Source: Antrihabitans cavernicola (GTDB taxonomy: Bacteria > Actinomycetota > Actinomycetes > Mycobacteriales > Mycobacteriaceae). Taken from it: a stretch of DNA of 40,688 nt. Both the position numbers and the translations under genes were made by a program. The notes beneath the pieces were generated by a model, which ran no database searches, was not told where the DNA came from, and worked only from the letters and a program-made list of their open reading frames with translations. Positions 1 to 40,688 of this stretch are shown in pieces. The stretch is taken from assembly GCF_008297975.1 (NCBI RefSeq), contig NZ_VLNY01000027.1, forward strand, positions 1-40,688. The letters run 5' to 3'. Positions within the stretch are counted from its first letter, which is position 1; the number at the start of each line of letters is the position of its first letter.

Positions 1-1639
1 ACCGACAACCAAATCCAACGACCGTCGCATCGCAACCGCAACCAACGATTCCGGACCCACACCATCCGCAATCAACCGCCGCGCAAGGCGATTCACACGG
101 TCACTGAAGTCTCCATACGTCAGAGACATGCCCTCGAACGTGATCGCAACTGCGTCGGGATCCGAAGGCGCCGACAACAACTCTGGCAACGTCAGTCGAC
201 CGACCGGGTGCTCCGTTGCGTTCCATTCCGTGACAACGCGATTACGCTCCGACGCGTCGAGCAGGTTCGCGTCACCGACTGGTGTCTGCGCGTCTGCGAC
301 CAGCGCACGCAACAGCATCACGTACTGCCGAGCGAATCGCTCCACAGTCTGCTCGTCGAACAGGTCTGCGGCATAGGTGAATCCGGCGGCCAGCCCGGCA
401 CCATCGAGCGGTGAAATGGTGAGCTCGAGATCGAATCGAGCGATCGCACCGTCGAGTCGAACCGTGTCGAAGGAGAGTCCGGCGACGTCCAGAAGTGCTT
501 GCGCCAGATTCTGGAACACCAGCGACACCTGGAACAGCGGGTGATGTGCAGGCGAGCGCACCGGGTCGAGCACCTCGACCAGTCGCTCGAACGGAACATC
601 GCTGTTACCGAATGCGGCGATGTCGCGTTCGCGCACGGTCGCGAGAAGATCGGAAAATGTCGCGGCGCCATCGATTTCGGTGCGCAACACCACGGTGTTG
701 ACGAACATGCCGATCAACGTGTCGAGCGCTGCGTCACCACGCCCGGCCACCGGCGTTCCGATTGCGACGTCGTCGGTGTTTGCCAACCGTGCGGTCAGCA
801 CAGCCAATGCTGTGTGCAGCACCATGAAAAGGGTTGCATCATGTTCCTGAGCAACAGCTTCCAGGGCGCCGCGCAGATCGGCATCGACGGTGAACTCGAC
901 AAGGCCACCCGCGCTGGTCGCAGTCGGTGGGCGCGGACGGTCGATCGGCAGCTCGACCCGCTCCGGAAGACCACAAAGGGTGTCCGACCAGTAGTCCAGC
1001 TGTTGTGCCGCAATCGAATCGGGGTCGGTTTCAGCACCCAACCACTCACGTTGCCACAGCGTGTAATCGGCGTACTGGACCGACAGCGGCGTCCAGTCGG
1101 GTGCGTACCCGCGGAGTCGAGCGCTGTAGGCCGTCACGAGGTCGGTGGCCAACGGCGCGATCGACGCGCCGTCGGCGGCGATATGATGTACCACGAGCGC
1201 CAGCACGTGTTCGGTCGGGCTGATGCGCAACAGCGCAGCCCGCAGCGGAACGTCCGTGGCGACGTCGAAGCCGCGTCGCGCGAATTCGGTTATCCAGTCG
1301 GTCGATTCGCCAGGATCGACGTTCACCCGTTGCAGTTGCGTCGTCACGCTCCCACGTTCTGCGATCGACTGGTGTCCAATCCCGTCGACATCGGGGTAGG
1401 TGGTGCGCAGCGTCTCGTGGCGATCGACGACGTCTGCGAGTGCTGCGGCGAGCGCATCGGCGTTCAGCGTGCCTGACAATCGTAGCGCGAACGGAATGTT
1501 GCTCGCTGCGGAGGAAGTGTCGAACCGGTTCAGGAACCACATCCGCCGCTGCGCCGACGACAACGGGATCAGCTCGGGCCGAACCATCGGCTCCAGCGGT
1601 GCACGGGCGCCCTCGCCCTTCTGCGGTTCCACGGCGGCG
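1..1639 (-). other. NRPS module 5: C and start of A5 (cut by window edge)
   Basis: An LCL-type C domain (about 400-1600; [11 protein letters not shown] at about 1165-1195) is followed by the first roughly 120 residues of an A domain, ending at [12 protein letters not shown] at base 1. The specificity pocket of A5, its carrier and anything after it lie outside the window. Confidence 0.87.
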
Positions 1640-10600: not shown

Positions 10601-13600
10601 CGCAGCGGGAGCAGCCGCTCCGAGTCCGGTACCGGCGAATTGTCCTGCACGGCAGCGGCGTCGATCGTGGCCGGGTCGTCGAGCAAGAGCCAGTCGGTGT
10701 CGGTGGGCAGTGCCTCGACGAACTCGCTCGTCGTGATACCGATGATCGCAGCGGAATCCGAGAGCATGTAGCGGATCCGAGCATCGGGCAACGTCGGATC
10801 GATCGGCACATACGCGCCACCGGTCTTCGCGACTGCCCAGACGGCGAGCACCATCTGATAGCTACGCGGAAATGCCAAAGCCACAAAGGTTTCCGGCCCG
10901 ACACCGCGTTGGATCAACAGCCGAGCCAGTCGCGACGATGCCTCGTCCAATTCCCGATACGTAATCGATCGATCTTGGTATCGAACGGCCGTCTTGTCCG
11001 GATTGCGCAGCGCGCCTCGAGCGAAGCAATCGACGAGCAAGGTTCGCGTAGACGCTGCCGAACCGTGCACGTGAGTGAGAGTGCGATATTCGACCTCGTC
11101 CAACAGCGCGAGGTCACCTATTGGAGTACCTGCGCCTGTGACGATCGAGCGCAGCAGGCGAGTGAAGCGATCCGCAAAAGACTCGACGGTCGACTGATCG
11201 AAAAGATCACGGGCATAGGCGAGTTCAGCCGCAATACCGCCGACGTCAACGTTTTCCGTGAGCGTCAGCGCCAGGTCGAACTTGGCCGAGGTAACTTCGG
11301 CGTCGACACCGTCGACAGTCAGTTCGGGCAATGTCAGCGAGCTGGGCGCCAGGTTCGCGAACGACAGCGCGACCTGGAACAGCGGATGACGCGCTGTCGA
11401 CCGCTCCGGATTGAGCGCATCGACAAGTCGCTCGAACGGGACGTCCGCGTGTCCGAACGCTTCCAGATTGGCGTCGCGCGTCTGCCGCACCACGTCGGCG
11501 AACAGCGCACCGCCGTCGATGTGACTACGCAGGACCAGGGTATTGACGAACATGCCGATCATGTCGTCCAACGCACGCTCGCCGCGTCCTGCGACCGGGG
11601 TGCCGATGGCAATGTCGTCGGTGCCCGACATGCGTGCAAGGAACACCGCCAGCGCGGAGTGCATGACCATGAACAGGGTCGCGCCTTGATCGCGTGCGAG
11701 GTCAGACAGGCTCCGATGCAGATCGGCTGCGATCTGGAATTCGACGTTGCCGCCCGCGAACGATTGCACGGCAGGCCGTGGCCGATCCGATGGCAGGTTC
11801 AGCTCGTCCGGCAAATCGGCCAGTGCGGTCTGCCAGTAGGTGATCTGCTGCGAGACAATGGATTCTGGATCGTCTTCCGAACCGAGAACGGCACGCTGCC
11901 ACAGTGAGTAGTCGGCGTACTGGACCGGCAGGGGCGTCCAACTCGGCGCTGCGCCCGAGCACCGTGCCGAATATGCGGCCATCACATCGCGCGTCAGCGG
12001 TCCCATCGACCAGCCGTCGCCGCTGATGTGGTGAACGACGAAGACCAACACGAACTGTGCGTGAAGTCGGGTGCCAGGGCCCTGAATTTCACGCACGGGG
12101 CCGGAGGCCAACAGCTGCGCGCGCAACGGAACATCGGCGGTGACATCGAAGCCGGCCGACACGATGTCGTGCACACGGGTGGCGATCTCCGACTCGTCCA
12201 CCTCGATCGGGGTCAGGTCCGGAATCACGTGCGCAGCAGGGACGATCACCTGGTACGCATCGCCGTCGTCGACCGGGAAGACCGTGCGCAGCGATTCGTG
12301 GCGCTCGATCACGTCGCCGACCGCGGCTTGTAACGCATCGACGTCGATCTCGCCGCTCAACCGCAGCACCACCGGCAGGTTGTTCACCGCCGACTCTATG
12401 TCGAACTGGTTGAGGAACCACATGCGCTGCTGGGCAAGCGACAGCGGGATTCGCTCCGGGCGGACCTGCGGGACCAGCGGCACCGTGCGAACGTGCGTGA
12501 CGTCGGTTTCGACACGCGCGGCGAGCGCGCCGACCGTCGGAGCCTCGAACAACTCGCGAACCGTCACGCGACTGCCGAGCGCAACGCCCAACCGGGCGAC
12601 CAACTGCGTTGCCATCAGCGAGTTTCCACCGAGCTCGAAGAAGTCGTCGTCCACTCCGGCCCTGTCGATGCCGAGCACGGCCGAGAACGACTCCGCCACG
12701 ATCTCTTCGACCGGGTTTGTCGGAGCCGTGAACGTCCTTGCCTCGTACACCGGTTGGGGCAACGCATTTCGGTCGAGCTTGCCCGACGAGTTCAGCGGCA
12801 GCCGATCCAGCACGAGCACAGCGGCAGGCACCATGTAGGCGGGCAGGGTGCGGCCGGCATGTGCTGCCAGCTCCGCGGTGTCGATGGAACCGTTGCTCGG
12901 CACGACGTACGCGACCAGTTGTTGCTGTCCCGGCTTGTCCTCCCGCACGATCACCACCGAGCGCGCAACCGCGTCGTGCTCGGTCAGCGCGGCCTCGATC
13001 TCGCCGAGTTCGATCCGCAGGCCGCGCACCTTCACCTGAAAGTCCGTGCGCCCCAGATATTCCAGTTCACCGAGTGGTCCGGCCCCCGACTTGCCGCTCC
13101 ACAGCACCAGGTCGCCGGTGCGATACATCCGCTCGCCCGGTTCACCGAACGGGTTGGCCACGAACCGATCCGACGTCAACTCGGGTCGGGTGACATAGCC
13201 GCGGGCCAACTGCACGCCGGACAGATACAGCTCGCCTGCCACACCGGGCGGAACCGGACGCAACCGGGAATCGAGCACGAAAGCTCGGGTGTTCGCAACC
13301 GGCAGGCCGATCGGCACCGATGCCGTGTCGTTCGGCACCGCCTCGTGGAAGGTCGCCGACACCGCGGCCTCCGTCGGCCCGTACAGGTTGTGCAGGCGAG
13401 CCGACGACAGCGAACGAAGTTGCTCGGCCGTCGATGCCGGAAGTGCCTCGCCGATCGCAAGGACACTGTCGAGCGATTCCGCTATCCGGATGCCCGGCTC
13501 GGACACGAATGCGGTGAGCATCGTCGGAACAAACGTTGCGACCGTGATGGATTCGGCCTCGATCGTCTGCGCCAGATAGTCGGCATCCGCGTGCCGGTCG

Positions 13601-14565
13601 GGCTCGGCGATGACCAGTCGGGCACCGATTTGGAAGGGCCAGAACAGTTCCCACACCGACACGTCGAAGGTGACCGGGGTTTTCTGCAGCATCGCATCGG
13701 CTGCGGTCAACCCGTATTCCTGCTGAATCCACAACAGCTGGTTCACGACGGCGCCATGGGTCAACGCGACACCCTTGGGTCGGCCGGTGGACCCCGACGT
13801 GAAGATCACGTACGCGCAGTTGGCAGGTGTCAGCCCGCGCAGTCGTTCCTGGTCGGTGATCGTCGCGTCGGAGTTGATACCGGCGTCCACCACATCGACG
13901 GCGACCGTGGCTGTACCGGCAGGCAGCTCGAAGCCGTCGCGCTCGGTTACCAGCACACAGACCGGCTGGGCGACGTCGAGGATGTAGGCGGTGCGGTCCA
14001 TCGGGTGATCGGGATCGAGCGGCACGTACGCGCCGCCCGCCTTGATCACCGCATACAGGCCGACAAGCAGGTCGACCGACCTGCGCATGCCGACGCCGAC
14101 GAGGGACTCCGCGCCGACACCGAGGCCGATCAAATGGCGTGCCAACCGGTTTGCGCGTGCGTCGAACTGCCGATAGGTCAGGGCGATGCCATCGCAGACG
14201 ATCGCCACCGCGTCGGGTGTCCGCGCTACCTGTTCCTCGAAGAGCGATACCAGCGTCCGAACGTCCTCGGTGCCCGCCGCATCGCCCGCACGCGAGCGGA
14301 CGTCGATCAAAATCCGCTGAATCCGGTCGGCCACCTCTGCGGGACTACCCTGCGCGATCGTCGGAGCCAACATCGTGACCGCCGACGAGATCGCGGCATC
14401 GCCGTCGAGCCCTTGCATCTGCAGGATCGGTCGCAACTGGACCACCCGACCGTGCAGTTGCGCGAACGTCGCCGAGACGTCGTCGACGGCGAACGCCAAC
14501 AGCTCCGGCGACACGTCAGCCGCATGCTCCAGCAGATCAGTGAGGCTGGGCGCGGCACCTGTCAT
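1..14565 (-). CDS. Giant modular nonribosomal peptide synthetase, C-terminal part beyond the window
   Basis: This gene builds a peptide on carrier proteins in the cytoplasm. From the ATG at 14565 the minus strand stays open for 4855 codons to base 1, where it is cut in the N-terminal subdomain of a fifth adenylation (A) domain. The visible order is A-T, C-A-T, C-A-T-E, C-A-T, C-A(partial). A domains show FTSGSTG-type A3 motifs and YGPTE; carrier domains show GGNSL (three) or GGDSI (one, before the epimerase); condensation domains show HHxxxDG. There is no loading C domain, so module 1 probably starts the chain. An in-frame GTG at 14577 is the only alternative start before a stop codon at 14590-14592, and no strong ribosome site is visible for either. 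No thioesterase, MbtH-like protein or export gene is in view. The NRPS assignment is certain; the product is unknown. Confidence 0.97.
1640..4789 (-). other. NRPS module 4: DCL-type C, A4, T4
   Basis: The C domain (about 3430-4760) starts [13 protein letters not shown] and has [13 protein letters not shown] at about 4287-4320, the pattern of DCL domains that accept a D-residue donor, which fits the epimerase just before it. A4 (about 1880-3400) has pocket D-V-W-S-A-A-L-V-H plus lysine by eye, of the same D-V-W..L-V class as A1. The carrier GGNSL is at about 1735-1750. Confidence 0.87.
4790..9299 (-). other. NRPS module 3: C, A3, T3, epimerase
   Basis: An LCL-type C domain (HHIAADG at about 8860-8885) is followed by A3 (about 6480-7960) with pocket D-A-L-F-L-A-G-I-M plus lysine, again hydrophobic and loosely like valine-type codes. 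The carrier has GGDSI (about 6330-6345), the variant typical of carriers that feed an epimerase. The next domain (about 4850-6180) has [10 protein letters not shown] near 5740-5765 and FNYLGR, both epimerase marks, so this residue is predicted to be delivered in the D form. Confidence 0.88.
9300..12479 (-). other. NRPS module 2: C, A2, T2
   Basis: The C domain (about 11215-12470) opens with [15 protein letters not shown] and has HHISGDG near 12015-12035, the pattern of LCL condensation domains that join two L-residues. A2 (about 9610-11130) carries SPSFDPS and INGYGPTET. By eye its pocket is D-P-L-V-I-A-G-I-I plus lysine, a hydrophobic pocket with a rare proline at the second position. The carrier core GGNSL is at about 9430-9450. 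Confidence 0.88.
12480..14565 (-). other. NRPS module 1: vestigial N-terminus, A1, T1
   Basis: Residues 1-85 look like the first part of an A domain ([20 protein letters not shown], then a break), followed by a fresh complete A domain from about residue 95 ([15 protein letters not shown]). Aligned by eye to the GrsA pocket, A1 reads D-V-W-T-L-I-L-V-S plus the A10 lysine. The D-V-W..L-V frame is shared with serine-type codes but the other positions differ, so no substrate is assigned. The carrier serine lies in GGNSL near 12626. With no C domain ahead of it this is most likely the initiation module. Confidence 0.88.
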
Positions 14566-14790
14566 CGACTCAGGCACACGACACCGATGTCACTGACGAC
14601 CAACTCCGTTCGACGATATGGACAAACCCGGCACACCTCACAGTTGGGGGCTCGAGACCACCGTCCACCGTACTTCGGCGACGATCCTCTCGGCTCGAAC
14701 CAGGCCGGACCCCCTGAAGTCCGTATCCCAAAGTAGTAGCGCCGACCAGGCCCGGCCACCCCCAAAAAGCAACGGCAGCCGGGCCCGGTT
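14566..14790. other. Intergenic stretch between rtcB and the NRPS gene
   Basis: These 225 bases hold the NRPS leader. A CCGGGCCCGG palindrome with a T5 run 13 bases later on the minus strand (14761-14790) lies just after the rtcB stop and may be a weak terminator, but the stem has no proper loop. I see no clear -10/-35 pair and no RNA gene. Confidence 0.4.
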
Positions 14791-26863: not shown

Positions 26864-27505
26864 ATGCATATCTGGAATTACCTTCACGGGCGAGGTGAAT
26901 TTCTCGCGTTCCTGACGTATCAGCATGCGTCGCTTGCCTTTCAGACCGTGTTGGTCGGAACGATCGTCGCCGTGATCATCGCGGTACTGGTGTACCGCCT
27001 GCCCGTCTTCTCTGCGCTGACCCTCACCACGAGCCGAGTCGCGTTGACCATTCCGTCGCTCGCACTGCTGGCGCTGCTGATCGTTCCGTTCGGCTTGGGC
27101 GTCATACCGTCGTTCCTCATGCTGGCGTTCTTCGCAGCAATGCCGGTGATCGGCAACGCGATCGTGGGACTACGCGCGGTCCCCGACTCGGTCATCGAAT
27201 CGGCGAAGGGAATCGGGTTGTCGCGGCGCCGCATCCTCTTCTCGGTATCGCTGCCCATGGCATGGCCCGTAATACTCACCGGCATTCGGGTGTCGACGCA
27301 GATGATCGTCGGTGTCGCCGCGATCGTCGCCTACGTGCTTGGCCCCGGCCTCGGGTCGTTGATCTTCAACGGCCTCTCCCGATTGGGTGGCACCAATTCC
27401 GTCGAAATGGCCGTGACAGGAACCGTTCTCATCGTCGTCATCGCCTTGGTGTTCGACGCCCTGCTCGTCCTTCTCGGGCGCCTCACCATTGCAAAGGGAC
27501 TGTGA
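26864..27505 (+). CDS. OpuB/OpuC-type ABC importer permease 1
   Basis: A 213-residue permease with five or six membrane segments and the EAA-like loop (IESAKGIGLSRRRILFSVSL, then P) that docks the ATPase. It belongs to the quaternary-ammonium/compatible-solute importers of the OpuB/OpuC/ProW type. The MHIWNYL start follows GAGAGGGAG; an upstream start at 26819 lacks one. It overlaps the ATPase gene by TGATG. Confidence 0.93.
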   Translation: MHIWNYLHGRGEFLAFLTYQHASLAFQTVLVGTIVAVIIAVLVYRLPVFSALTLTTSRVALTIPSLALLALLIVPFGLGVIPSFLMLAFFAAMPVIGNAIVGLRAVPDSVIESAKGIGLSRRRILFSVSLPMAWPVILTGIRVSTQMIVGVAAIVAYVLGPGLGSLIFNGLSRLGGTNSVEMAVTGTVLIVVIALVFDALLVLLGRLTIAKGL

Positions 27506-28713
27506 TGACCGACAATTCCGCTACTGCCGACCGAAATGTGTCGGGTGTGTCCATCCGTCTCGACGGTGTGGTGAAGCAGTACAAGGGAACGGCGAAGCCT
27601 GCCGTGCAGAAGATCGATCTGGACATCGAAGCGGGCCACATCGTTGCCTTCGTCGGACCGTCAGGGTGCGGTAAGACGACCACGTTGAAGATGATCAACA
27701 GGCTCATCGAACCCACGCAGGGTCGACTCTTCATCGGCGACCGTGACGTCACCGGCGAAGATCCGGACAAGCTGCGGCAGTCGATCGGCTATGTCATCCA
27801 GGCGGGCGGACTGTTCCCACACTGGTCGGTGAGCAAGAACATCGGCGCCATCCCCCGCGTTCTCGGCTGGGACAAACAACGCATAGCCGAGCGAACCGAG
27901 TACCTCCTCGACCTGGTGGGCCTCGACGCCGACACGTTCCGCGACCGCTTGCCCAAGGACATGTCCGGCGGCCAGCAACAGCGTGTCGGTGTCGCACGAG
28001 CCCTCGCCGCCGATCCACCCGTTCTGTTGATGGACGAACCGTTCAGCGCAGTCGATCCGATCACCCGAGTACGCTTGCAGGACAGCCTCATTGCGATTCA
28101 GCACGAGGTCGCGAAGACCATCGTCATCGTCACACACGATTTCGAGGAAGCGACCAAGCTCGGCGACAAGGTGCTCATCCTTTCCGAGGGCGGCAAAATC
28201 GAGCAGTACGCGACGCCGGAAGAGATCCTTGCAAAGCCTGCCAACCCCTTCGTCGAAGAATTCATCGGATCGGGTGCCACGCTTGCTCACCTGACACTCA
28301 CCAGGGTCAGGGACGTCGAACACAATCCGGTGGTGACCGCGCGGGTCGGCGACTCGTCGCAAGAAGTCATCGGCCGGGCGAAGGCGCAGGGTGCGACGTG
28401 GGTCGCGGTCGTCGACAGCCAGGGCCGTCCGCAGTCGTGGCCGTCGCTCGACGAGGTGGCGACGAAGGAACGCATCTCCGACTATGTCGACGAACGCCTT
28501 CCGACGGTGGCGCCGTCGTCGACGCTCAACGACGCACTCGACTCCATGCTCGCCGCCAGCCAGGGCGGGGTCCTCGTCACCGACAGCCGAGGCGCGGTAA
28601 CCGGTGCGCTCACCGTCGCGACCGTCATGTCCGTCATTCGTGGACAACTCTCGGATGCCCGAGCCGACGACGAGCAGGTTTCGTACAGCGCTCACACCGA
28701 GGGCACGGCATGA
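27505..28713 (+). CDS. OpuB/OpuC-type ABC importer ATPase with CBS region
   Basis: A 402-residue ATPase: Walker A GPSGCGKTTT, the Q-loop (GYVIQAGGLFPHWSV), signature MSGGQQQR, Walker B VLLMDEP and the switch histidine in VTHDF. After about residue 245 comes a regulatory extension whose last part (APSSTLNDALDSMLAASQGG and following) resembles a CBS domain; in OpuA such domains sense ionic strength. Only one convincing CBS repeat is seen. It powers the two flanking permeases and overlaps the second by ATGA. Confidence 0.95.
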   Translation: MTDNSATADRNVSGVSIRLDGVVKQYKGTAKPAVQKIDLDIEAGHIVAFVGPSGCGKTTTLKMINRLIEPTQGRLFIGDRDVTGEDPDKLRQSIGYVIQAGGLFPHWSVSKNIGAIPRVLGWDKQRIAERTEYLLDLVGLDADTFRDRLPKDMSGGQQQRVGVARALAADPPVLLMDEPFSAVDPITRVRLQDSLIAIQHEVAKTIVIVTHDFEEATKLGDKVLILSEGGKIEQYATPEEILAKPANPFVEEFIGSGATLAHLTLTRVRDVEHNPVVTARVGDSSQEVIGRAKAQGATWVAVVDSQGRPQSWPSLDEVATKERISDYVDERLPTVAPSSTLNDALDSMLAASQGGVLVTDSRGAVTGALTVATVMSVIRGQLSDARADDEQVSYSAHTEGTA

Positions 28714-29447
28714 ACCGACTGCGACGCACACCGATCGACGTATGGTTCGAGCCGCTCATCATTCTGATTCTCGGAATCGGATACATCGCGTGGTATCGAT
28801 CGACCACGCTGACATCCACCGAACAGGCATCGCTGGGCTGGGACAACCTACGCTCGACGATCATCGACCACATCATCTTGACGCTGACCGCGACAGCGAT
28901 CGTCGTGCTGATTGCCATCCCGCTGGGCATCCTGCTCACACGGGAGAAGGCGAAACGGCTCAAGCCGTTCGTCATCAACATCGCCAACGTCGGCCAAGCC
29001 GCACCCGCTGTCGGTCTGATCGTGTTGCTGACGATGTGGCTGGGCACCGGATTCCGCACTGCCGTAATAGGACTCGTTGTCTACGCCATTCTGCCGATCT
29101 TGCAGAACACCATCATCGGCATCGATCAGGTAGACAAGCGAACGATCGAAGCATCTCGCGGAATCGGCTACTCCGGAGCGCGCACACTGCTGCAGGTGGA
29201 GTTGCCGCTCGCAGTTCCCGTGATCCTCAACGGTGTTCGGACCGCTCTGGTGATCCTGGTCGGGACGGCCACGCTGAGCACCTTCATCGGTGCCACCAGC
29301 TTGGGCACGCTCATCACCACCGGCGTGACGCTGTTCTTGCCGAAGCTGCTCATCTCGGGTGCCATCTTGGTCGGGCTCCTGGCTTTGACGATCGATTGGC
29401 TCGGCCGACTGGTCGAACTGGTCGCAACACCGCGAGGAGTGGCATGA
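28710..29447 (+). CDS. OpuB/OpuC-type ABC importer permease 2
   Basis: A 245-residue permease with about six membrane segments and the docking loop TIEASRGIGYSGARTLLQVEL. It pairs with permease 1 as a heterodimeric channel, the arrangement of OpuB and OpuC. It overlaps its neighbours at both ends (ATGA), so all four subunits are co-translated. Confidence 0.94.
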   Translation: MNRLRRTPIDVWFEPLIILILGIGYIAWYRSTTLTSTEQASLGWDNLRSTIIDHIILTLTATAIVVLIAIPLGILLTREKAKRLKPFVINIANVGQAAPAVGLIVLLTMWLGTGFRTAVIGLVVYAILPILQNTIIGIDQVDKRTIEASRGIGYSGARTLLQVELPLAVPVILNGVRTALVILVGTATLSTFIGATSLGTLITTGVTLFLPKLLISGAILVGLLALTIDWLGRLVELVATPRGVA

Positions 29448-30415
29448 GGCGCCTGCGGCTGGCTGCGGCGATTGCCGTCGCCGCGAGCACCTTGGCAAGC
29501 TGCGGCCTGGTCAGCTCGTCGGGCACGTTCCACAGTGCGTCGCTGCCCGGCGGCGATCGACCGCTCGCAGGTGCGTCGCTCGTGGTCACGTCGAAGAGCT
29601 TCACCGAAGGGGTGCTGCTCGGGAAGATCAGCGCGACATATCTTGCGGCAGCAGGCGCCAAGGTCACCGACCTCACCGGCGCTCCGGGATCAGCCTCGTC
29701 GCGCCAGGCGCAACTCAACGGTGACGCCGACATTCTGTGGGAATACACGGGCACCGGCTGGGTGAACTATCACAACGAAACCGAGACCATCGCAGATCCG
29801 AAAGAGCTGTGGCAGAAGGTCCACGACATCGAGCTGAAAGAAAACAACCTCGACTGGCTGCCGCCTGCGAACTTCAACGACACCTATGCTTTTGCGGCAT
29901 CCTCGCCGACTGCGCAACGCTTGGGCGTCACAACGATGTCCGACGTCGCGAAATTGCCCGTCGCCGACCGCACTTTCTGCGTGGACGACGAGTTCTTCAG
30001 CCGTGCAGACGGATTCGTGCCGATGTTGAAGACATACGGGATTCCGCTCAACGCGCCCGACGGCGTCCCGTCCGGCAACGTGACAAGAATGGATGCCGGT
30101 GTGGTCTACACCTCCACCGAGCGCAGCGCACCCTGCAACTTCGGCATGGTCTACACCACGGACGGTCGCGTGAAGAACCTGAACCTGAAAGTCCTCGACG
30201 ACGATCGGAAGTTCTTCCTGCCCTACAGCGGCACCGCGGTCGTGCGGGACGAAATCCTGAAGAAGTACCCCAAGGTTGCCGACCTGCTGGGAGTCGTCTC
30301 GTCGCACCTGACCGACGACTTGATGCAGGAACTGAACGGGCGCGTCGACATCAAGGGCGAGGACCCGTCGGACGTCGCATACGACTGGCTGAAGAGCGAG
30401 AAGCTGGTTAACTGA
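29444..30415 (+). CDS. Substrate-binding lipoprotein of the OpuB/OpuC-type importer
   Basis: A 323-residue lipoprotein with signal peptide and lipobox LASC (Cys20), then an OpuAC/ProX-type binding domain (VVTSKSFTEGVLLGKISATY, ILWEYTGTGWVNYHNE, YPKVADLLGVVSSHLTDDLM). Such proteins bind glycine betaine, choline, carnitine or, in some, ergothioneine through aromatic cages. I cannot decide which from sequence by eye. It is the last gene of the importer. Confidence 0.94.
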   Translation: MRRLRLAAAIAVAASTLASCGLVSSSGTFHSASLPGGDRPLAGASLVVTSKSFTEGVLLGKISATYLAAAGAKVTDLTGAPGSASSRQAQLNGDADILWEYTGTGWVNYHNETETIADPKELWQKVHDIELKENNLDWLPPANFNDTYAFAASSPTAQRLGVTTMSDVAKLPVADRTFCVDDEFFSRADGFVPMLKTYGIPLNAPDGVPSGNVTRMDAGVVYTSTERSAPCNFGMVYTTDGRVKNLNLKVLDDDRKFFLPYSGTAVVRDEILKKYPKVADLLGVVSSHLTDDLMQELNGRVDIKGEDPSDVAYDWLKSEKLVN

Positions 30416-33749: not shown

Positions 33750-34745
33750 TCATGCCTGTGCGCGCCATTGTCGAGGACTCGCCCCGAATCGCCGCAGGAA
33801 CCACCGCGAGAAATTGCTCGGCGACGACAACCCCAACAACTCGGCAACTTCGCCGAGCGAATGCCGTTGCCCCGCAACCAGGTGTCTGGCCAGCTCGGCT
33901 CGTGCATCGTCGAGCACTCCTGTGAACGTAGCGCCGTCCGCGGCGAGACGGCGATGAACGGTGCGTCGGTCGACGCCCATGCTGATAGCGATCTGCTCGA
34001 CCGAGCACCGTCCAGTCGGAAGAAGCATCTCGATCAGCTCACGGACGCGCCCGACGGTGTCGATCTGTCGATCGGTAGCCGGTGGCAGCACCTGCTGGAT
34101 GTACGCCCGCAGCTGTGGGTCGGCCATGGCGTTGGGCCGGTCGAGGTCGGCCTCGTACAGGACCACTCCGTTGAAATCGTGGTCGTAGCGCAGGGACCCC
34201 GGAAACATCCGCCGCGCGGTAGTGCCGTCGGCGGGCTCCGGATGTCCGAAACACACAGCCAACGGCCGCCATTCCGGCCCGAGCAGCGCGCGCAGCAGCC
34301 CGTGCAGTACCCCGACCGCGAGATCGATCGACTGGTTGTCGGGTTGCACGGTGCCGAGGTCGAGTTCGACTCGCGCGGAAGCGATTCCGTCCATCGTGGT
34401 CACACGGGTATGAAGTGCCTCGTTGTACATGTTCTCGTGGCGAACCAGCACCTGAAGCGCGCTACGCACATCGGGTTCTTCGCGCAGCACCAAGCTGAGC
34501 GGACCGAGATGCGAGAGTCGTCGCAGCTCCGCGAGGCGTAGGCCGAGGTCTGCCCGACCTGTCTGCGCCGCCGTCCGCTCCAGCAGGTCCACGACCGCCG
34601 ACGCGGGCACCCACCTGTCTTGCAGTCGAACTCCGGCCGGGTCCAGCCCCGCGGAGCGCAACAGCGCGGCGGAATCGACACCCAAAGCGGCCGTGAGTTC
34701 CACGTAGTTGGCCAGCGAGGCATATCGCGCCAGCGGCTTCACCAC
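33750..34745 (-). CDS. AraC-family regulator with arabinose-binding-like N-domain
   Basis: A 331-residue regulator. Residues about 15-200 resemble the ligand domain found in OruR/ArgR-type AraC proteins (LRSAGLDPAGVRLQDRWVPA, LGLRLAELRRLSHLGPLSLV). The C-terminal 100 residues are an AraC double helix-turn-helix (SVEQIAISMGVDRRTVHRRL; LGEVAELLGLSSPSNFSRWF, then RRFGASPRQWR). It starts with GTG and is divergent from the catabolic operon, with two inverted repeats in the gap, so it is probably that operon's activator responding to the substrate or an intermediate. Confidence 0.94.
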   Translation of the reverse strand: MVKPLARYASLANYVELTAALGVDSAALLRSAGLDPAGVRLQDRWVPASAVVDLLERTAAQTGRADLGLRLAELRRLSHLGPLSLVLREEPDVRSALQVLVRHENMYNEALHTRVTTMDGIASARVELDLGTVQPDNQSIDLAVGVLHGLLRALLGPEWRPLAVCFGHPEPADGTTARRMFPGSLRYDHDFNGVVLYEADLDRPNAMADPQLRAYIQQVLPPATDRQIDTVGRVRELIEMLLPTGRCSVEQIAISMGVDRRTVHRRLAADGATFTGVLDDARAELARHLVAGQRHSLGEVAELLGLSSPSNFSRWFLRRFGASPRQWRAQA

Positions 34746-34754
34746 ACCCCCCAG

Positions 34755-34772
34755 AGGTGACCCGCGTCACCT
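34755..34772. promoter_or_regulatory. Inverted repeat in the AraC/catabolic-operon gap
   Basis: AGGTGAC, CCGC, GTCACCT: a perfect 7-bp inverted repeat just upstream of the AraC start, suited to binding a dimeric regulator. Confidence 0.55.
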
Positions 34773-34795
34773 GTGCGTTCCGATTTGAATAGAAA

Positions 34796-34809
34796 CTTGT
34801 CCCGACAAG
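34796..34809. promoter_or_regulatory. Second inverted repeat in the same gap
   Basis: CTTGTC, CC, GACAAG: a perfect 6-bp inverted repeat about 87 bases before the oxidoreductase start. AraC proteins often bind direct repeats, so a second regulator is possible. Confidence 0.5.
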
Positions 34810-34895
34810 AACAGTTTAAGCCTTCTTGCCTTCGTAGTGTCATCTGCATCACAAAGTCCGGCCACGTCGGTCGGGCAGGCAGGAAAGGACACACA

Positions 34896-35885
34896 GTGGC
34901 AACGCAGCTGGACGCCAAGGCAATCCGCTTCTACGAGACCGGCGGGCCGGAGGTGCTCCATTGGGAGAGCGTGGCGGTCGACGAACCCGGCCCCGGCGAG
35001 GTTCGGGTCCGACACGAAGCCGTTGGATTGAACTTCGCCGACACCTACTTTCGCACCGGCCTCTACCCGTCGCCTCTGCCCGCAGGTATGGGCGTCGAGG
35101 CTTCGGGCGTCATCGAGTCGGCTGGTCCGGGCGTCGTCGATTTCGCCGCCGGTGATCGAGTCACCTACACCGGTAGCCCGCTGGGTGCGTACAGCACCGC
35201 GCGAGTCATGCCTGCCGAGCACCTGATCGCCCTGCCCGACGCCATCGAGTTCGAGACAGCGGCGGCGATGACAATGCGCGGCCTGACAGCCGCATACCTG
35301 ATGCGCCGGATCCACTCCTATCGCGACGGGGACACCATTTTGCTGCACGCTGCAGCGGGAGGCGTCGGCCTGATCGTCACGCAGTGGGCAAAGCTGCTGG
35401 GCCTCAACGTGATCGGCACCGTATCCACCGAGGCGAAGGCCGAGATCGCCCGCGCCCACGGCTGCGACCACGTTATCCGCTACCGCGACGAGGACGTGGC
35501 GGCGCGAGTACGCGAACTCACCGACGGCAAGGGTGTGCCCGTCGTGCTGGACAGCATCGGCGCAACCACCTTTGCTACGTCGCTGGACTCCCTTGCCCGC
35601 CGCGGTCTGCTGGTGTGCTTCGGCACTGCGTCCGGCCCCATCCCGCCGATCGACGCCATGCAGCTCGCGATCAAGGGTTCAGTGTTCGTCACCCGGCCCG
35701 CCCTCGCCGACTACATCGCCGATCCGGCAGAGCGCGCCGAACTGGCAGGCGAACTGTTCGATCACGTCGCCGCAGGCCGCATCGCGATCGACATCAACCA
35801 GCGCTACGAACTCGCCGACGCCGTACGCGCACACACCGAACTCGAAGCCGGCACCAGCGTCGGCTCGTCCGTACTCACCGTCTGA
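34896..35885 (+). CDS. Zinc-less quinone-oxidoreductase-type dehydrogenase/reductase (MDR family)
   Basis: A 329-residue medium-chain reductase of the quinone oxidoreductase (QOR) type: MATQLDAKAIRFYETGGPEV, GLNFADTYFRTGLYP, GMGVEASGVIESAGPGV and the NADPH motif AAAGGVGLIVTQWAKLLG. It lacks the zinc ligands of alcohol dehydrogenases. Such enzymes reduce quinones or alpha,beta-unsaturated carbonyls. The GTG start follows AAGGA. As first gene of the operon it may act on an unsaturated or carbonyl intermediate. Confidence 0.93.
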   Translation: MATQLDAKAIRFYETGGPEVLHWESVAVDEPGPGEVRVRHEAVGLNFADTYFRTGLYPSPLPAGMGVEASGVIESAGPGVVDFAAGDRVTYTGSPLGAYSTARVMPAEHLIALPDAIEFETAAAMTMRGLTAAYLMRRIHSYRDGDTILLHAAAGGVGLIVTQWAKLLGLNVIGTVSTEAKAEIARAHGCDHVIRYRDEDVAARVRELTDGKGVPVVLDSIGATTFATSLDSLARRGLLVCFGTASGPIPPIDAMQLAIKGSVFVTRPALADYIADPAERAELAGELFDHVAAGRIAIDINQRYELADAVRAHTELEAGTSVGSSVLTV

Positions 35886-35904
35886 CCCGAGAACTGGAAC
35901 CACC

Positions 35905-36789
35905 ATGACCACAACAACTTTCGCCCCGGCGACCGAACTCATCCGCGCCGAGCGCCTGACCGCCAACCTCGGGGCCGAACTGTTCGACGTCGATCTCGCC
36001 GAGGTCGCCCGCGACGACGCCCTGTTCGCCGAATTTCACGCTCTTCTCTTGCGGCACAAGGTGCTCTTCGTGCGCGATCAGCCGATCAGCCGTGCCGACC
36101 ACGTCGCACTTGCCGAGAGGTTCGGCACCTTGGAAGACCATCCCGTACTGGGCTGCGACCCAGACCACCCCGGCCTCGTGCGCATCTACAAAGACCTCGA
36201 CAGCCCACCCGAGCACTACGAGAACGCCTTTCACTGCGACGCCACCTGGCGGCAGAACCCGCCCATGGGATCGGTGCTGCGCTGCGTCGAGGGCCCCGCG
36301 GTCGGCGGCGACACGATTTGGGTCGACATGGTCGCCGCCTACGAGCGCCTGCCCGAGAACGTCAAGGAGCGCATCGCGGGCCTGCGTGCACGGCACAGCA
36401 TCGAGTCCACCTTCGGTGCGGCCATGCCGCCGGAGCGGCGTGCGGAACTCCACCAGCGGTTCCCCGACGCCGAGCACCCGGTGGTGCGCATTCATCCCGA
36501 GACCGGCGAGAAGGCGCTCTTCGTCAACTCGTTCACCACCCACTTCACCAATTTCCACACGCCCGAGAACGTGCGCTTCGGCATCGACTACGCCCCTGGC
36601 GCAGCGGATCTCCTGCAGTACCTGATCAGCCAGGCAACCATCCCCGAGTTCCAGGTGCGGTGGCGCTGGACCCCGAACAGCTTCGCCATCTGGGACAACC
36701 GCCACACCCAGCACTACGCGGTGCAGGACTACTTCCCCGGCGTTCGCCGGATGGAACGCGCGGGCATCGCAGGCGATCGACCTTTCTGA
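35905..36789 (+). CDS. TauD/TfdA-type Fe(II)/2-oxoglutarate dioxygenase
   Basis: A 294-residue dioxygenase. The iron triad is visible as FHCDATW (His110, Asp112) and WDNRHTQHYA (His270), with Arg285 (RRMERA) placed to bind 2-oxoglutarate. Family members hydroxylate carbons next to sulfonate, ether, amine or carboxylate groups, often releasing a carbonyl product (taurine, 2,4-D, gamma-butyrobetaine relatives). The setting argues for generation of a hydroxy or keto acid for the next enzyme. It starts 19 bases after the oxidoreductase stop. Confidence 0.95.
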   Translation: MTTTTFAPATELIRAERLTANLGAELFDVDLAEVARDDALFAEFHALLLRHKVLFVRDQPISRADHVALAERFGTLEDHPVLGCDPDHPGLVRIYKDLDSPPEHYENAFHCDATWRQNPPMGSVLRCVEGPAVGGDTIWVDMVAAYERLPENVKERIAGLRARHSIESTFGAAMPPERRAELHQRFPDAEHPVVRIHPETGEKALFVNSFTTHFTNFHTPENVRFGIDYAPGAADLLQYLISQATIPEFQVRWRWTPNSFAIWDNRHTQHYAVQDYFPGVRRMERAGIAGDRPF

Positions 36790-36842
36790 CCCCAACCAGC
36801 TCGATCTTGTTACAGCTCAACACAACACACAAGGAGAATCCC

Positions 36843-37895
36843 ATGCATTTCCACGACGACGCCCTGTTCCCCGAGGTTCAGGACAAGCTGGTCATCACCT
36901 GCGCGCCGTACGGCCCCGAGTGGGAGCTCGACGACTTCCGCGAAGACCTGCCCCTCACCATCGAGGAGCACGTTCAGCAGGCTGTCGATTGCTACGAAGC
37001 CGGCGCCACGGTGCTGCACATCCACGTTCGTGAGCTGGACGGCCATGGCAGCAAACGGCTTTCGAAGTTCAACGAGCTGCTCGCAGGGCTCCGTGAGGCA
37101 GTGCCGGACATGATCCTTCAGGTCGGCGGCTCCATCTCGTTCGCGCCCGAAGGCGACGGTAAAGATGCCAAGTGGCTCTCCGACGACACCCGGCACATGC
37201 TGGCCGAGCTGGACCCGAAGCCGGACCAAGTCACCATTGCCATCAACACCAGCCAGATGAACATCATGGAGCTGATGACCGAGGACGACATCGCGGGAAC
37301 GTCCATGACCCGCCCGGAGCTGTCCGACACCTACCGCGAGATGACGGTGCCCGCAGGACCGGCATGGGTCGAGGAGCACCTGCGTCGGCTCACCGCAGCG
37401 GGCATCCAGCCGCATTTCCAGCTGTCGTCGATTCCGCAGCTGGAAACTGTCGAACGCCTGATCCGCCGTGGCAAGTACATGGGCCCCTTCAACGTGACCT
37501 GGGTGGGCATCGGCGGAGGCTTCGACGGCCCGAACCCGTACAACATCATGGAATTCGTCAAGCGCGTTCCCGACGGCGCGATCCTCACGCTGGAGACGCT
37601 GATGCGCTCCGTGCTGCCGGTGAACGCGATGGCCATCGCGATGGGCCTGCACGCCCGGTGTGGCAACGAGGACACGATCTGGGGCCGTAAGGGCGAGAAG
37701 ATCAAGTCGGTCGATCAGGTCAAGCAGCTCGTGCGGATCGCTCAGGAGCTCGGCCGCGAAGTGGCCGATGGCAAGGAAGCCCGCGACATCTACCGGATCG
37801 GCGAGCAGTACTCCAGCGTCGACGAGACACTCGCCAAGCTGGGCTACGCGCCGAACCGCGTGCTCGGCCAGGTCGGCTTCACCGGTCACGCCTAG
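36843..37895 (+). CDS. BKACE (DUF849) beta-keto acid cleavage enzyme
   Basis: A 350-residue TIM-barrel enzyme of the BKACE family, which condenses a beta-keto acid with acetyl-CoA and releases acetoacetate plus a CoA ester. Seen are VITCAPYGPEW at the N-terminus, the zinc motif HIHVREL (His59, His61), LQVGGS, and GNEDTIW with the probable third zinc ligand Glu276. A strong AAGGAG precedes the ATG. The family acts on many keto acids (3-keto-5-aminohexanoate, dehydrocarnitine and others), so the family alone does not give the substrate. The CoA-transferase subunit further down fits the acetoacetate product. Confidence 0.95.
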   Translation: MHFHDDALFPEVQDKLVITCAPYGPEWELDDFREDLPLTIEEHVQQAVDCYEAGATVLHIHVRELDGHGSKRLSKFNELLAGLREAVPDMILQVGGSISFAPEGDGKDAKWLSDDTRHMLAELDPKPDQVTIAINTSQMNIMELMTEDDIAGTSMTRPELSDTYREMTVPAGPAWVEEHLRRLTAAGIQPHFQLSSIPQLETVERLIRRGKYMGPFNVTWVGIGGGFDGPNPYNIMEFVKRVPDGAILTLETLMRSVLPVNAMAIAMGLHARCGNEDTIWGRKGEKIKSVDQVKQLVRIAQELGREVADGKEARDIYRIGEQYSSVDETLAKLGYAPNRVLGQVGFTGHA

Positions 37896-37913
37896 CAAGG
37901 ACGACGAAACAAC

Positions 37914-39248
37914 ATGATTGCCATCACCTCGTCGGTGGAAGAATCCATCGGGGCACCGACCGCCGGGACCTCGTCGTCCCGGCGGCGGCTCTACCCCTGG
38001 ATCGTCTTCGGCCTCGCATTCGCATTGTTGTTGTCGGACTACATGTCTCGACAAGTGCTCAGCGCCGTGTTCCCGTTCCTCAAGGCCGACTGGTCGTTGA
38101 CCGACTCGCAACTCGCGTCGCTCACCTCCGTCGTCGCACTGATGGTCGGGTTGCTCACCCTGCCGATTTCGATCCTGGCCGACAGGTGGGGGCGGGTGCG
38201 CAGCCTGGTCCTGATGGCCGTCCTCTGGAGCGTCGCCACCCTGGCGTGCGCCCTCGCAGGCGGGTACGAGCACATGCTCATCGCCCGTTTCATGGTCGGC
38301 GTCGGCGAAGCTGCGTACGGCAGCGTCGGAATTGCGCTGGTGCTCAGCGTCTTTGCGCCTCAAGTGCACGCCGCACTGGCAGGCGCCTTCATGGCGGGCG
38401 GGTCGTTCGGCTCGGTGGTCGGTGTGAGCTTGGGCGGCGTGATCGCCACCCAACTCGGCTGGCGCTGGTCGTTCGCGGCGATGGCGGTGCTCGGCCTGTT
38501 GCTGGCAGCGGCGTTCAAGGTGCTGATCACCGAACGCCGTCTTGCGAAGTACCAGGTGCGACGACCCGACGGCGGCGTGGTGGTCCGACGGGCACCGTTC
38601 TCCAGCCTGTTCACGAATCCGGCGGTGATGTGCGCCTACGTCGGCGGCGGCCTGCAGATGTTCATGGCGGCAGTGATGCTCGCGTGGCTGCCGAGCTTCT
38701 TCAATCGCACCTACGATTACCCACCAGCCCGCGCCGCGGTGGTCGCATCCGTGTTTGTTCTGCTGATCGCCACGGGAATGATCGGATGCGGCTACATCGC
38801 AGATCGGCTGAGCCGTAACGACATCACCGGAAAATGGACTGTCGGAATCGGTTACTGCGCAATCGGGTTCGTCTGCCTCATGGCGGCGTTCCGACTCGAC
38901 ACCGGAGCGGGTCAGTTGGCGCTGCTCGCCATCGGAGCGTTCTTCTCCGCAGGGTCCTCCGGCACTACCGCAGCGATGGTCGCGGGGCTGACCCACCAGT
39001 CGGTGCAGGCCTCCGGGATGGGCACTCTGACGCTGGCCAACAATCTGCTCGGTCTGGCACTGGGCCCGATGGTCGTGGGCATTCTCGCGGACCATCTCGG
39101 CCTGCTCGGCGCACTGCAGTGGGCACCGCTCGCGTACCTGCCCGCCGCTGCGGCGATGCTGCTCGGCAAGCGCCTGCATCCGCGCGGGCTGGCAAAGCTT
39201 CAGACCTTGGACGCCGCAACAACTATCAAATCCGACGAGGAATCATGA
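37914..39248 (+). CDS. MFS transporter
   Basis: A 444-residue major facilitator with 12 predicted membrane segments and the MFS loop motif ADRWGRVRSL between segments 2 and 3. The segment MSRQVLSAVFPFLKADWSLT is typical of the organic-acid/anion-type MFS carriers near dioxygenase operons. It probably imports the pathway substrate. It overlaps the hydrolase gene by ATGA. Confidence 0.94.
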   Translation: MIAITSSVEESIGAPTAGTSSSRRRLYPWIVFGLAFALLLSDYMSRQVLSAVFPFLKADWSLTDSQLASLTSVVALMVGLLTLPISILADRWGRVRSLVLMAVLWSVATLACALAGGYEHMLIARFMVGVGEAAYGSVGIALVLSVFAPQVHAALAGAFMAGGSFGSVVGVSLGGVIATQLGWRWSFAAMAVLGLLLAAAFKVLITERRLAKYQVRRPDGGVVVRRAPFSSLFTNPAVMCAYVGGGLQMFMAAVMLAWLPSFFNRTYDYPPARAAVVASVFVLLIATGMIGCGYIADRLSRNDITGKWTVGIGYCAIGFVCLMAAFRLDTGAGQLALLAIGAFFSAGSSGTTAAMVAGLTHQSVQASGMGTLTLANNLLGLALGPMVVGILADHLGLLGALQWAPLAYLPAAAAMLLGKRLHPRGLAKLQTLDAATTIKSDEES

Positions 39249-39826
39249 ACGACTCGAAGGTCACCGTGGTGATCGTGCCCGGCCTACGCGACCACGTCGC
39301 CGACCATTGGCAGACCCACCTTGCCGACCAGCTCGAACACACCGTTACCGTCCCGCCCCTCGAACACGACAAGCTCAGCCGCGCCGCACGGGTAGCAGCA
39401 CTCGACGAGGTGGTGAACTCGATAGACGGCCCGATCGTGCTGGTGGCGCACAGCGCAGGTGTCATCACCACAGTGCACTGGGCGCAGCAGTCGACCCGAC
39501 CGATAGTGGGCGCGCTGTTGGCGACGCCTGCCGACCTGGAACAGCCCCTGCCGCATGGGTATCCGACCGCCGATCAACTCGACGACGCAGGCTGGACTCC
39601 TATTCCGCGGCGACGTCTCCCCTTTCCCAGCATCGTCGCTGCCAGCAGCAACGATCCGCTCGGAAGCTCGCGGCGGATTGCGGGTATGGCCGAAGCCTGG
39701 GGCAGCCGCCTGGTTTCGCTCGGTCCGGTCGGGCACCTGAATCCTGCTGCAGGATATGGCCGTTGGCCGCAGGCCAAGGATCTGGTGCAGGATCTGATCG
39801 CTGCTCGCGAGCAGGTTGCGCTGTGA
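39245..39826 (+). CDS. RBBP9/YdeN-type serine hydrolase
   Basis: A 193-residue small alpha/beta hydrolase: VVIVPGLRDHVADHWQTHL at the N-terminus, nucleophile in VAHSAG, acid in SSNDPL, and base in GHLNPAAGYG. This matches the RBBP9/YdeN serine hydrolase family, whose natural substrates are mostly unknown. In the operon it may open an ester, lactone or thioester. Its stop overlaps the next start (GTGA). Confidence 0.92.
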   Translation: MNDSKVTVVIVPGLRDHVADHWQTHLADQLEHTVTVPPLEHDKLSRAARVAALDEVVNSIDGPIVLVAHSAGVITTVHWAQQSTRPIVGALLATPADLEQPLPHGYPTADQLDDAGWTPIPRRRLPFPSIVAASSNDPLGSSRRIAGMAEAWGSRLVSLGPVGHLNPAAGYGRWPQAKDLVQDLIAAREQVAL

Positions 39827-40629
39827 CCCGAACGTTCGCAACCGCCGCCGATGCTGTTGCCGATATCTCGGACGGCGCTTCGGTGGCAGTGGGTGGCTTC
39901 GGATTGTGCGGCATCCCTGACGTGCTGATCGCCGCCATCGCCGCGGGTACCGCCTGCGACTTGCAGGTGGTCTCCAACAACTGCGGCACCGATGGCTACG
40001 GCCTCGGGCTGCTGTTGGCGCAGAAGCGGATCCGGCGGGTCGTCGCATCGTACGTCGGTGAGAACGCCGAGTTCGCGCGCCAATACCTTTCCGGAGAACT
40101 GGAGGTGGAGCTGACACCACAGGGCACCCTTGCCGAGAAGCTTCGCGCGGGCGGCGTCGGGGTGCCCGCTTTCTTCACGCCCGCCGGAGTCGGCACCCCG
40201 ATCGCCGAGGGCGGACTCCCCTGGCGCTATCGCCCCGACGGATCGGTGGCGCTGGCCTCGCCACCGAAAGAGATCCGCGAGTACGGCGGGCGGCGCCACG
40301 TGCTCGAGGAATCGATCACGACCGACTACGCCCTGGTCCACGCTCTCGTCGGCGACACCGCCGGCAATCTCGTATTCGACAAAGCAGCACGGAATTTCAA
40401 CCCGCTTGCTGCCATGGCGGGTCGGATCTGCATCGCCCAGGTGGAGAAGCTCGTACCGATCGGCGAACTCGACCCGGGACAGGTCCATCTGCCAGGCGTG
40501 TTCGTCGATCGCATCGTGCACACCGGCGTGCAGGACAAGCAGATCGAAAAGCGCACCGTCACAGCACGAAAGACATCTCACGAAGCTAAATGTCAAGCCG
40601 CGAGCTCGGAAGGAGGTGGAAACGCCTGA
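39823..40629 (+). CDS. 3-keto-acid CoA-transferase, subunit A
   Basis: A 268-residue class I CoA-transferase alpha subunit: VAVGGFGLCGIPDVLIAAI, NNCGTDGYGLGLLL, FFTPAGVGTPIAEGG and VFDKAARNFNPLAAMAGR. Such enzymes move CoA from succinyl-CoA to acetoacetate or a related keto acid, which would use the acetoacetate released by the BKACE enzyme. About 20 unusual residues follow the normal family end (KRTVTA), carrying a strong GGAGG site for the next gene. The A subunit needs a B subunit to work; see the next entry. Confidence 0.94.
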   Translation: MTRTFATAADAVADISDGASVAVGGFGLCGIPDVLIAAIAAGTACDLQVVSNNCGTDGYGLGLLLAQKRIRRVVASYVGENAEFARQYLSGELEVELTPQGTLAEKLRAGGVGVPAFFTPAGVGTPIAEGGLPWRYRPDGSVALASPPKEIREYGGRRHVLEESITTDYALVHALVGDTAGNLVFDKAARNFNPLAAMAGRICIAQVEKLVPIGELDPGQVHLPGVFVDRIVHTGVQDKQIEKRTVTARKTSHEAKCQAASSEGGGNA

Positions 40630-40688
40630 TGTTCGTCGTAGAGCCGGCCGGTTTGCAGGCAGTGGTGCAGCTGGCCGAGGAACTTGTT
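40629..40688 (+). CDS. Start of an unidentified gene (cut by window edge)
   Basis: An ATG overlapping the previous stop (TGATG) and preceded by GGAGG opens a frame that begins MFVVEPAGLQAVVQL and is still open after 20 codons. A CoA-transferase B subunit is expected here, but those usually start with a MxWTRDEMA-like segment, which is absent. It may be a different pathway gene, or a B subunit with another start; 60 bases are too few to tell. Confidence 0.5.
   Translation, partial: MFVVEPAGLQAVVQLAEELV

Follow-up and report, generated by a model that had tools for sequence, protein, structure and literature searches.

The window analysed here, a complete contig of 40,688 nucleotides from the actinobacterium Antrihabitans cavernicola (NZ_VLNY01000027.1), ends with an operon that couples a TauD/TfdA-type Fe(II)/2-oxoglutarate dioxygenase (hereafter TauD) to a member of the beta-keto acid cleavage enzyme family (BKACE, DUF849). 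This operon is real, conserved and bigger than a preliminary description of the sequence had it. From its gene set, a repeat shared by its upstream regions, the co-occurrence of its genes, the active-site residues of its enzymes and a genetic link with YeiH proteins, we infer the chemical steps and the substrate of an undescribed route, which we put forward tentatively. TauD would oxidise a free acid to a beta-keto acid, and BKACE would cleave the latter to acetoacetate and an acyl-CoA, the starting compound being plausibly a beta-sulfonate.

The preliminary description had listed genes for an AraC-family regulator, TauD, BKACE, a major facilitator superfamily (MFS) transporter, a hydrolase and a CoA-transferase, all of which are present (Table 1). 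The MFS and hydrolase genes overlap by 4 bases, as do those of the hydrolase and the CoA-transferase, and the remaining gaps are 18 to 53 bases long. It had overlooked the first gene of the operon, coding for an NADPH:quinone-reductase-family protein (QOR, 34896-35885), and the truncation of the operon by the contig end. The gene order is AraC, divergent, followed by QOR-TauD-BKACE-MFS-hydrolase-CoA-transferase A. Because the window is the entire contig (G000:C20), the operon is cut at the contig end. The end of another contig of the same assembly (C18) contains an intact gene for CoA-transferase subunit B, along with one of the CMD family, in an order that matches that of relatives such as L084, and the operon therefore most likely continues there, the stretch between the two contig ends being unseen. 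The C-terminal residues of CoA-transferase A and the bases after its gene (window 40560-40688) are unlike those of the relative L036; together with the location of the B subunit on the other contig, this suggests that a repeated insert likely separates the A and B genes and broke the assembly.

Table 1. Features of the operon, of its upstream region and of its probable continuation. Positions refer to the window unless a locus is named.
Feature	Position	Strand	Remarks
AraC-family regulator (PF12625 + HTH_18)	33750-34745	-	Divergent from the operon; QhpR model 189.9 bits, under its cut-off of 250
Probable AraC operator, two direct half-sites	34776-34814	+	22-bp period; first half degenerate in the window (GTTCC, then GTCCC)
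Possible -10 and start region, TAGTGTCATCTGCATCACA	34835-34853	+	Similar in several relatives, seen by eye in 11 upstream regions
QOR, NADPH:quinone-reductase-family MDR protein	34896-35885	+	329 residues, GTG start, first operon gene; NF008024 353.9 bits, cut-off 348
TauD/TfdA Fe(II)/2-oxoglutarate dioxygenase	35905-36789	+	294 residues; PF02668
BKACE/DUF849 protein	36843-37895	+	350 residues; PF05853; Gln193 and Ser195 at the positions of Kce Glu143 and Tyr145
MFS transporter	37914-39248	+	444 residues
Small serine hydrolase (PF06821)	39245-39826	+	193 residues; single solved match 3bdv (DUF1234)
3-oxoacid CoA-transferase subunit A (PcaI/ScoA family)	39823-40629	+	GTG start; TIGR02429 228.4 bits, cut-off 128.5
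CoA-transferase subunit B	L176:15891-16550 (end of contig G000:C18)	-	Intact
CMD-family gene	L176:15436-15951 (end of contig G000:C18)	-	

We analysed the best 80 loci of 125 relatives selected by their BKACE proteins; several come from one species, close strains included. Genes were counted by tblastn, and simple choices of open reading frames based on the GC content of third codon positions overlooked some hydrolase and TauD genes. Matches to AraC were found in 79 of the 80 loci, to the MFS transporter in 77, to TauD and QOR in 73 each and to the hydrolase in 71, followed by the acyl-CoA ligase FadD (39), both CoA-transferase subunits (35), the CMD-family protein (35), YeiH (18) and an acyl-CoA dehydrogenase of 380 residues (13). 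The QOR, TauD and BKACE genes form a single same-strand run in 72 loci. In a set of 151 genomes from the family, the same 34, that of A. cavernicola included (hereafter operon genomes), encode both BKACE (E <= 1e-60) and TauD (E <= 1e-85) (Fisher p 1e-34, for genomes that kinship makes non-independent), and 34 of the 37 TauD matches lie less than 300 bp from BKACE. The gene set thus far exceeds chance. A phylum-wide search brought a small gain (4 of 396 genomes).

Conservation of the neighbourhood in other actinobacteria, proposed as a check in the preliminary description, was borne out and extends to some Proteobacteria. The actinobacterial genera with the locus are Williamsia, Antrihabitans, Skermania, Tsukamurella, Nocardia, Gordonia, Rhodococcus, Mycolicibacter, Intrasporangium, Saccharopolyspora, Nocardioides and Rhizocola. 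Plasmids or second replicons in Azoarcus, Novosphingobium, Caballeronia, Paraburkholderia and Streptomyces likewise carry the QOR, TauD, BKACE, MFS and hydrolase genes together, with BKACE identities of 62 to 70%. Partial sets exist as well. In Diaphorobacter a close BKACE gene lies approximately 10 kb away from a QOR-TauD-hydrolase cluster, in C. metallidurans TauD and BKACE alone are labelled, and in C. necator (L133 and L134) a TauD-hydrolase cluster has no BKACE gene within 10 kb. An Ensifer BKACE homologue (46% identity) is surrounded by none of these genes. Two loci, L098 and L108, harbour a short-chain dehydrogenase/reductase (SDR) gene before BKACE and are devoid of TauD.

The BKACE protein matches the Pfam PF05853 model (202.9 bits, cut-off 24.8). 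The preliminary description had pointed out that many enzymes of this family are unassigned, and this protein indeed falls outside the assigned subgroups as represented by NCBIfam models, scoring under the cut-off of each model that it matched: 132.5 bits versus 382 for KCE, 90.1 versus 430 for 3,5-dioxohexanoate, 81.7 versus 350 for 3-oxoadipate and 72.9 versus 725 for bifunctional KAL/KCE. It also forms a group of its own in a midpoint-rooted FastTree tree of 59 sequences, whose support values were not inspected. We numbered its residues by alignment to Kce (2y7d), in which the zinc ligands are His46, His48 and Glu230; Arg226 and Asp231 were considered as well. Like Kce, the operon BKACE has the same fold, zinc ligands, Arg226, Asp231 and Glu14, all six of these residues being kept in 80/80 loci; Kce Glu14 corresponds to the invariant Glu26 of BKACE. 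Unlike Kce, it is approximately 70 residues longer, and the residues before GG are changed. Glu143 is replaced in all 80 loci, by Gln in 78 and by Ala in 2, namely the two SDR-containing loci without TauD. At position 145 we found Ser (68 loci), Ala (9), Thr (2) or Gly (1), and Tyr or Phe in none. For comparison, among 28 sequences of the family obtained by the order search, one of which (L164) belongs to the new group, 21 have Glu143, and 8 and 18 have Tyr and Phe at position 145, respectively. Tyr145 is thus not universal in this set, whereas an aromatic residue at this position nearly is, and the small residue is unusual. The Diaphorobacter and Caballeronia sp. Sq4a homologues share Gln143 but differ in Tyr145 and in the Ser or Ala that replaces Glu14. 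A structure model of BKACE has a mean predicted local distance difference test score of 70.7, reliable for the fold and not for pocket detail, and its fold comparison assigns the protein to the family; cis-epoxysuccinate hydrolases have the same fold.

Acetoacetate, which the preliminary description had proposed as product, is a likely product of BKACE, as suggested by two unrelated activating systems that accompany this enzyme: CoA-transferase A and B genes in 35/80 loci and, instead of them, an acetoacetate--CoA ligase gene located after the hydrolase gene in two Streptomyces plasmid loci. Regarding the second product, the Rhodococcus opacus locus contains genes for a polyhydroxyalkanoate (PHA) synthase and a MaoC protein near the operon, that of Nocardioides a PHA synthase gene, and in Caballeronia grimmiae the operon is followed by the methylcitrate genes prpB, prpC, acnD and prpF. 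Together with the FadD and acyl-CoA dehydrogenase genes counted above, these neighbours suggest an acyl-CoA, perhaps a short one.

TauD scores well with PF02668 (222.4 bits, cut-off 27) and remains under the cut-off of the taurine dioxygenase equivalog NF007104 (231.4 bits versus 313). As in E. coli TauD, it harbours the iron ligands H99, D101 and H255, the 2-oxoglutarate arginine R266, as well as F159, F206 and, on the sulfonate side, H70 and R270. Unlike E. coli TauD, it is encoded in an operon with BKACE, and Y73 and N95 of the amine side are replaced, N95 corresponding to Glu106 in a Glu-Asn pair present in 73/73 proteins. H70 and R270 are likewise kept in PlaO1 and 5hsx and hence are not diagnostic of the substrate; we dropped them as proof of a sulfonate for that reason. 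The solved structure 5vn6, titled 'taurine dioxygenase' and of function not established, matches the protein over residues 13-294 (440.6 bits) and has the same YEN motif. The best solved matches of QOR are QORs and the 2-haloacrylate reductase 1wly. In the Intrasporangium and Saccharopolyspora operons, another, distant TauD-family gene lies ahead of QOR (L085:6800-7870 and L088:6903-7955).

The clue to sulfur comes from YeiH, a family associated with sulfite resistance, for which the query was the protein encoded beside the operon in genome G015. YeiH is present in 28/34 operon genomes and in 41/117 others (p 1.2e-6). We used 35 of the 36 YeiH matches in the operon genomes, a gene broken in two in G077 being represented by its first fragment alone. 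Twelve of the 35, each from a different genome and covering nine genera, are at most 10 kb away from BKACE, versus 0.15 expected from a Poisson calculation that assumes even placement and independent genomes; the query is itself one of the 12, and two of them are only 31% identical to it. A YeiH gene also follows the Novosphingobium operon and, in the Rhodococcus gordoniae and Streptomyces chartreusis plasmids, lies close to the operon. As a control, we compared by eye the coordinates of TauE/SafE exporter genes with those of BKACE in the operon genomes other than G000 and G032 (32 of 34), and none of the 121 matches lies within 10 kb; with approximately 0.5 expected, this indicates the absence of enrichment rather than avoidance. 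A Salmonella yeiH mutant fails to recover under sulfite stress, according to the available part of PMC12880088, and the YeiH link points to a substrate that may bear sulfur. In Rhodococcus IGTS8, a YeiH protein went undetected in the proteome, as stated in an extract of PMC8557817.

Control of the operon by the AraC protein, suggested in the preliminary description, is backed by a direct repeat with a period of 22 bp in the intergenic regions, of consensus TGTCCCGAAaTGAa.Agaaat.TGTCCCgt.AGGAtAAGcaT. The 71 regions considered, one of which is from the window, have a labelled QOR, BKACE or MFS gene within 1200 bases of a divergent AraC gene. With no more than 1 mismatch and a gap of 16 to 18 permitted, the repeat was found in 68 of the 71 regions and in 41 of the 1387 stretches taken from these loci as control, although it had first been spotted by eye in regions inside the counted set. 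The three AraC-linked regions without it are those of L106, L116 and L122. In the A. cavernicola genome, the extended pattern occurs once with up to 3 mismatches, at the position given in Table 1, and a reversed-pattern control gave 0 matches. Ten loci from Nocardia have AraC-MFS kilobases away from QOR-TauD-BKACE, with the repeat at both promoter regions in 10/10 cases, which places the transporter and the enzymes in one regulon. The repeat precedes QOR genes without an adjacent AraC gene in 10/22 loci, all ten from Nocardia, and is missing in the other 12, mostly from Saccharopolyspora, Mycolicibacter, Intrasporangium, R. aetherivorans and plasmid loci. This repeat is probably the operator of the AraC protein, a predicted binding site. 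As for other elements, GCATCACA and ATGTGATG are present in 18/50 and 19/50 upstream regions, respectively, on either strand, and the perfect palindrome TTGTCnnGACAA in the AraC-QOR gap was discarded as a chance occurrence (1/51 regions).

Taken together, these data are consistent with the following scheme. The AraC protein, probably bound to the growth substrate or an intermediate, would activate the operon via the two direct half-sites 22 bp apart. The MFS protein would import an organic acid, and the small hydrolase may free the acid from a conjugate, or open the conjugate. TauD would then oxygenate the beta carbon of the free acid, yielding a beta-keto acid with no prior activation by CoA. 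If the beta carbon carries a sulfonate, this step would release sulfite, as TauD does from taurine, which would explain the presence of YeiH beside the operon. BKACE would transfer the two-carbon end to acetyl-CoA, generating acetoacetate and a shortened acyl-CoA. The former would be activated by the CoA-transferase, or by the ligase in the two Streptomyces loci, and the latter may be taken onward by FadD, the acyl-CoA dehydrogenase, PHA synthase or the methylcitrate enzymes in some relatives. QOR would act as a reductase on an unsaturated or quinone-like intermediate at some step of this scheme. In L098 and L108, the SDR gene before BKACE and the absence of TauD look as if the beta-keto acid came from a beta-hydroxy acid there, and these loci would thus support a beta-keto acid as the BKACE substrate, made in another way.

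In a bolder form that we regard as rather unlikely, the pathway would degrade sulfonated carboxylic acids by a beta-oxidation that is driven by oxygen and independent of CoA, in which TauD strips sulfite from the beta carbon and a separate group of BKACE enzymes without Glu143 or an aromatic residue at position 145 performs the cleavage, acting on a widespread soil organosulfur substrate whose breakdown is not known. If the scheme described above is right, it would add an aerobic route with a 2-oxoglutarate dioxygenase in place of dehydrogenases and CoA ligation before BKACE, with sulfur as a clue to its substrate. This BKACE group would be a testable exception to the notion that the family requires a catalytic tyrosine, and the defined operator-like repeat would allow inducer discovery by means of a reporter. 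The substrate is probably common in soil, given that roughly one in five of the family's sampled species (34/151) carries the BKACE-TauD pair.

Several points weigh against the route via a beta-sulfonate. QOR, the hydrolase and the CMD-family protein have no firm step in the pathway. One locus (L100) has TauD-BKACE without QOR, and another (L117) also lacks the MFS and hydrolase genes nearby. The kept sulfonate-side residues of TauD are not diagnostic, as mentioned above, and its amine side differs. Regarding YeiH, the gene is nearby in only 12/34 operon genomes, and the single match in the A. cavernicola genome is on another contig, C38. The operon genomes are mostly large, possibly inflating the count of 28/34, and the YeiH neighbours in L121 and L116 score under the TIGR00698 cut-off of 232.6, with 159.6 and 164.7 bits (E 1e-46 and 3e-48), respectively. 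YeiH is moreover described as poorly characterised in the part of PMC12880088 at hand. The invariant Glu26 of BKACE and Glu106 of TauD would also fit a cationic substrate, and the loss of Glu143 and Tyr145 could signal other chemistry.

The first of these last two points bears on an alternative that we consider doubtful: TauD might hydroxylate the beta carbon of a sulfur-free acid, like gamma-butyrobetaine hydroxylase; a dehydrogenase, or TauD in a second turnover, would then give the beta-keto acid, the substrate being cationic or aliphatic and YeiH serving another purpose. The glutamates at the positions of Kce Glu14 (80/80) and E. coli TauD Asn95 (73/73) could hold an amino group, a contact made by Glu14 in Kce according to the portion of PMC10470551 available. 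However, Glu26 is replaced by Ser or Ala in three Proteobacterial homologues. The SDR gene before BKACE in the two TauD-less loci is what would be expected for a beta-hydroxy-acid route, and neighbours coding for FadD, DUF1302/DUF1329 and PHA synthase proteins hint at aliphatic acids, but this scenario leaves the YeiH link unexplained, and the QOR protein passes the NADPH:quinone reductase model and has quinone and haloacrylate reductases, not alcohol dehydrogenases, as best solved matches.

It is less probable that the substrate is a conjugate of which TauD attacks one part, by desulfonation or deamination, and the hydrolase and BKACE another, so that the BKACE substrate would not come from TauD. 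The conserved hydrolase (71/80) and FadD (39/80) would suit a conjugate of two acids, and some TauD relatives are found with hydrolase and FadD genes and no BKACE in the fetched stretch, but the sharing of the same 34/151 genomes by TauD and BKACE argues against such a division of labour. We deem it improbable, in turn, that the BKACE-like protein is a relative with other chemistry, in the manner of BsfD or of the cis-epoxysuccinate hydrolases of the same fold. All BKACE sequences are said to carry Tyr145, and BsfD, with Phe at that position, catalyses a different reaction, in the passages of PMC12871164 available. In the operon BKACE, Glu143 is replaced in 80/80 loci and neither Tyr nor Phe stands at position 145. 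Nevertheless, all 80 loci retain the zinc ligands, Arg226 and Asp231, acetoacetate-activating genes of two unrelated types accompany BKACE, and the frequency of Phe145 in other family members (18/28) makes the tyrosine alone a weak mark.

Breakdown of carnitine or betaine via dehydrocarnitine, which is a BKACE substrate, had been raised in the preliminary description and is highly improbable: a glycine-betaine-type ABC transporter is encoded upstream of the operon in the window, but only 3/80 loci contain a counterpart of its OpuAC binding protein near the operon, and genes of the known route (carnitine dehydrogenase, betainyl-CoA thioesterase) are not among the labelled genes of the 80 operon runs, no search having been aimed at them. 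With no labelled operon gene pointing there, we rejected it as the lead reading. Overall, the preliminary interpretation is partly supported, and it had not foreseen QOR, the replaced Glu143 and Tyr145 or the YeiH link.

Among described systems, the deoxyribonate pathway of Pseudomonas simiae (PMC6365646, as far as the accessible text goes) resembles the proposed route in the conversion of a free acid to a beta-keto acid, the BKACE cleavage, the MFS transporter genes in the operon and the later activation of acetoacetate; unlike the latter, it uses an SDR dehydrogenase, not TauD and QOR, and has a GntR-like regulator. The triacetate acetoacetate-lyase of phloroglucinol breakdown is likewise a BKACE-family enzyme that yields acetoacetate, with CoA-transferase and thiolase downstream, but its route is anaerobic and devoid of a dioxygenase, and it has Trp at the Kce Glu14 position (PMC10470551, from the same portion). 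In literature searches, whose scope left out most subscription journals, no article joined '3-keto-5-aminohexanoate cleavage' with 'TauD' and 'quinone oxidoreductase', nor with 'sulfonate'. Its combination with 'Rhodococcus' returned PMC6449761, on aromatic metabolism in Betaproteobacteria, the available sections of which do not describe the operon.

Related arrangements were seen in other loci. In L126, L127 and L128, TauD relatives (57 to 62%) are encoded beside an AraC gene, with no BKACE in the fetched stretch, and in two of these three loci a cupin resembling 2,4'-dihydroxyacetophenone dioxygenase is encoded beside the TauD relative. These may be sister pathways that use another C-C cleaving enzyme. 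In the Proteobacterial loci L129, L133, L134, L124 and L131, a small Rieske 2Fe-2S protein is encoded near TauD, with a DsbA-family protein in some. A Prescottella BKACE gene in a locus without TauD or QOR is followed by what appears, from its sequence, to be an ABC transporter with a binding protein and a permease (L109:11146-13070).

In the window, the glycine-betaine-type transporter mentioned above (27262-30415) comprises an ATPase with a CBS domain, a permease and the OpuAC binding protein. It is followed by a sulfotransferase-family gene (PF13469, 30420-31511), for which we found no match near the operon among the 80 relatives. The A. cavernicola genome contains a second, distant BKACE-family match (G000:C38:8652-9383, 102.2 bits), with one TAG within the matched frame. 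Finally, a very long open frame of 4859 residues on the reverse strand (1-14577) runs off the contig and resembles a multidomain synthetase.

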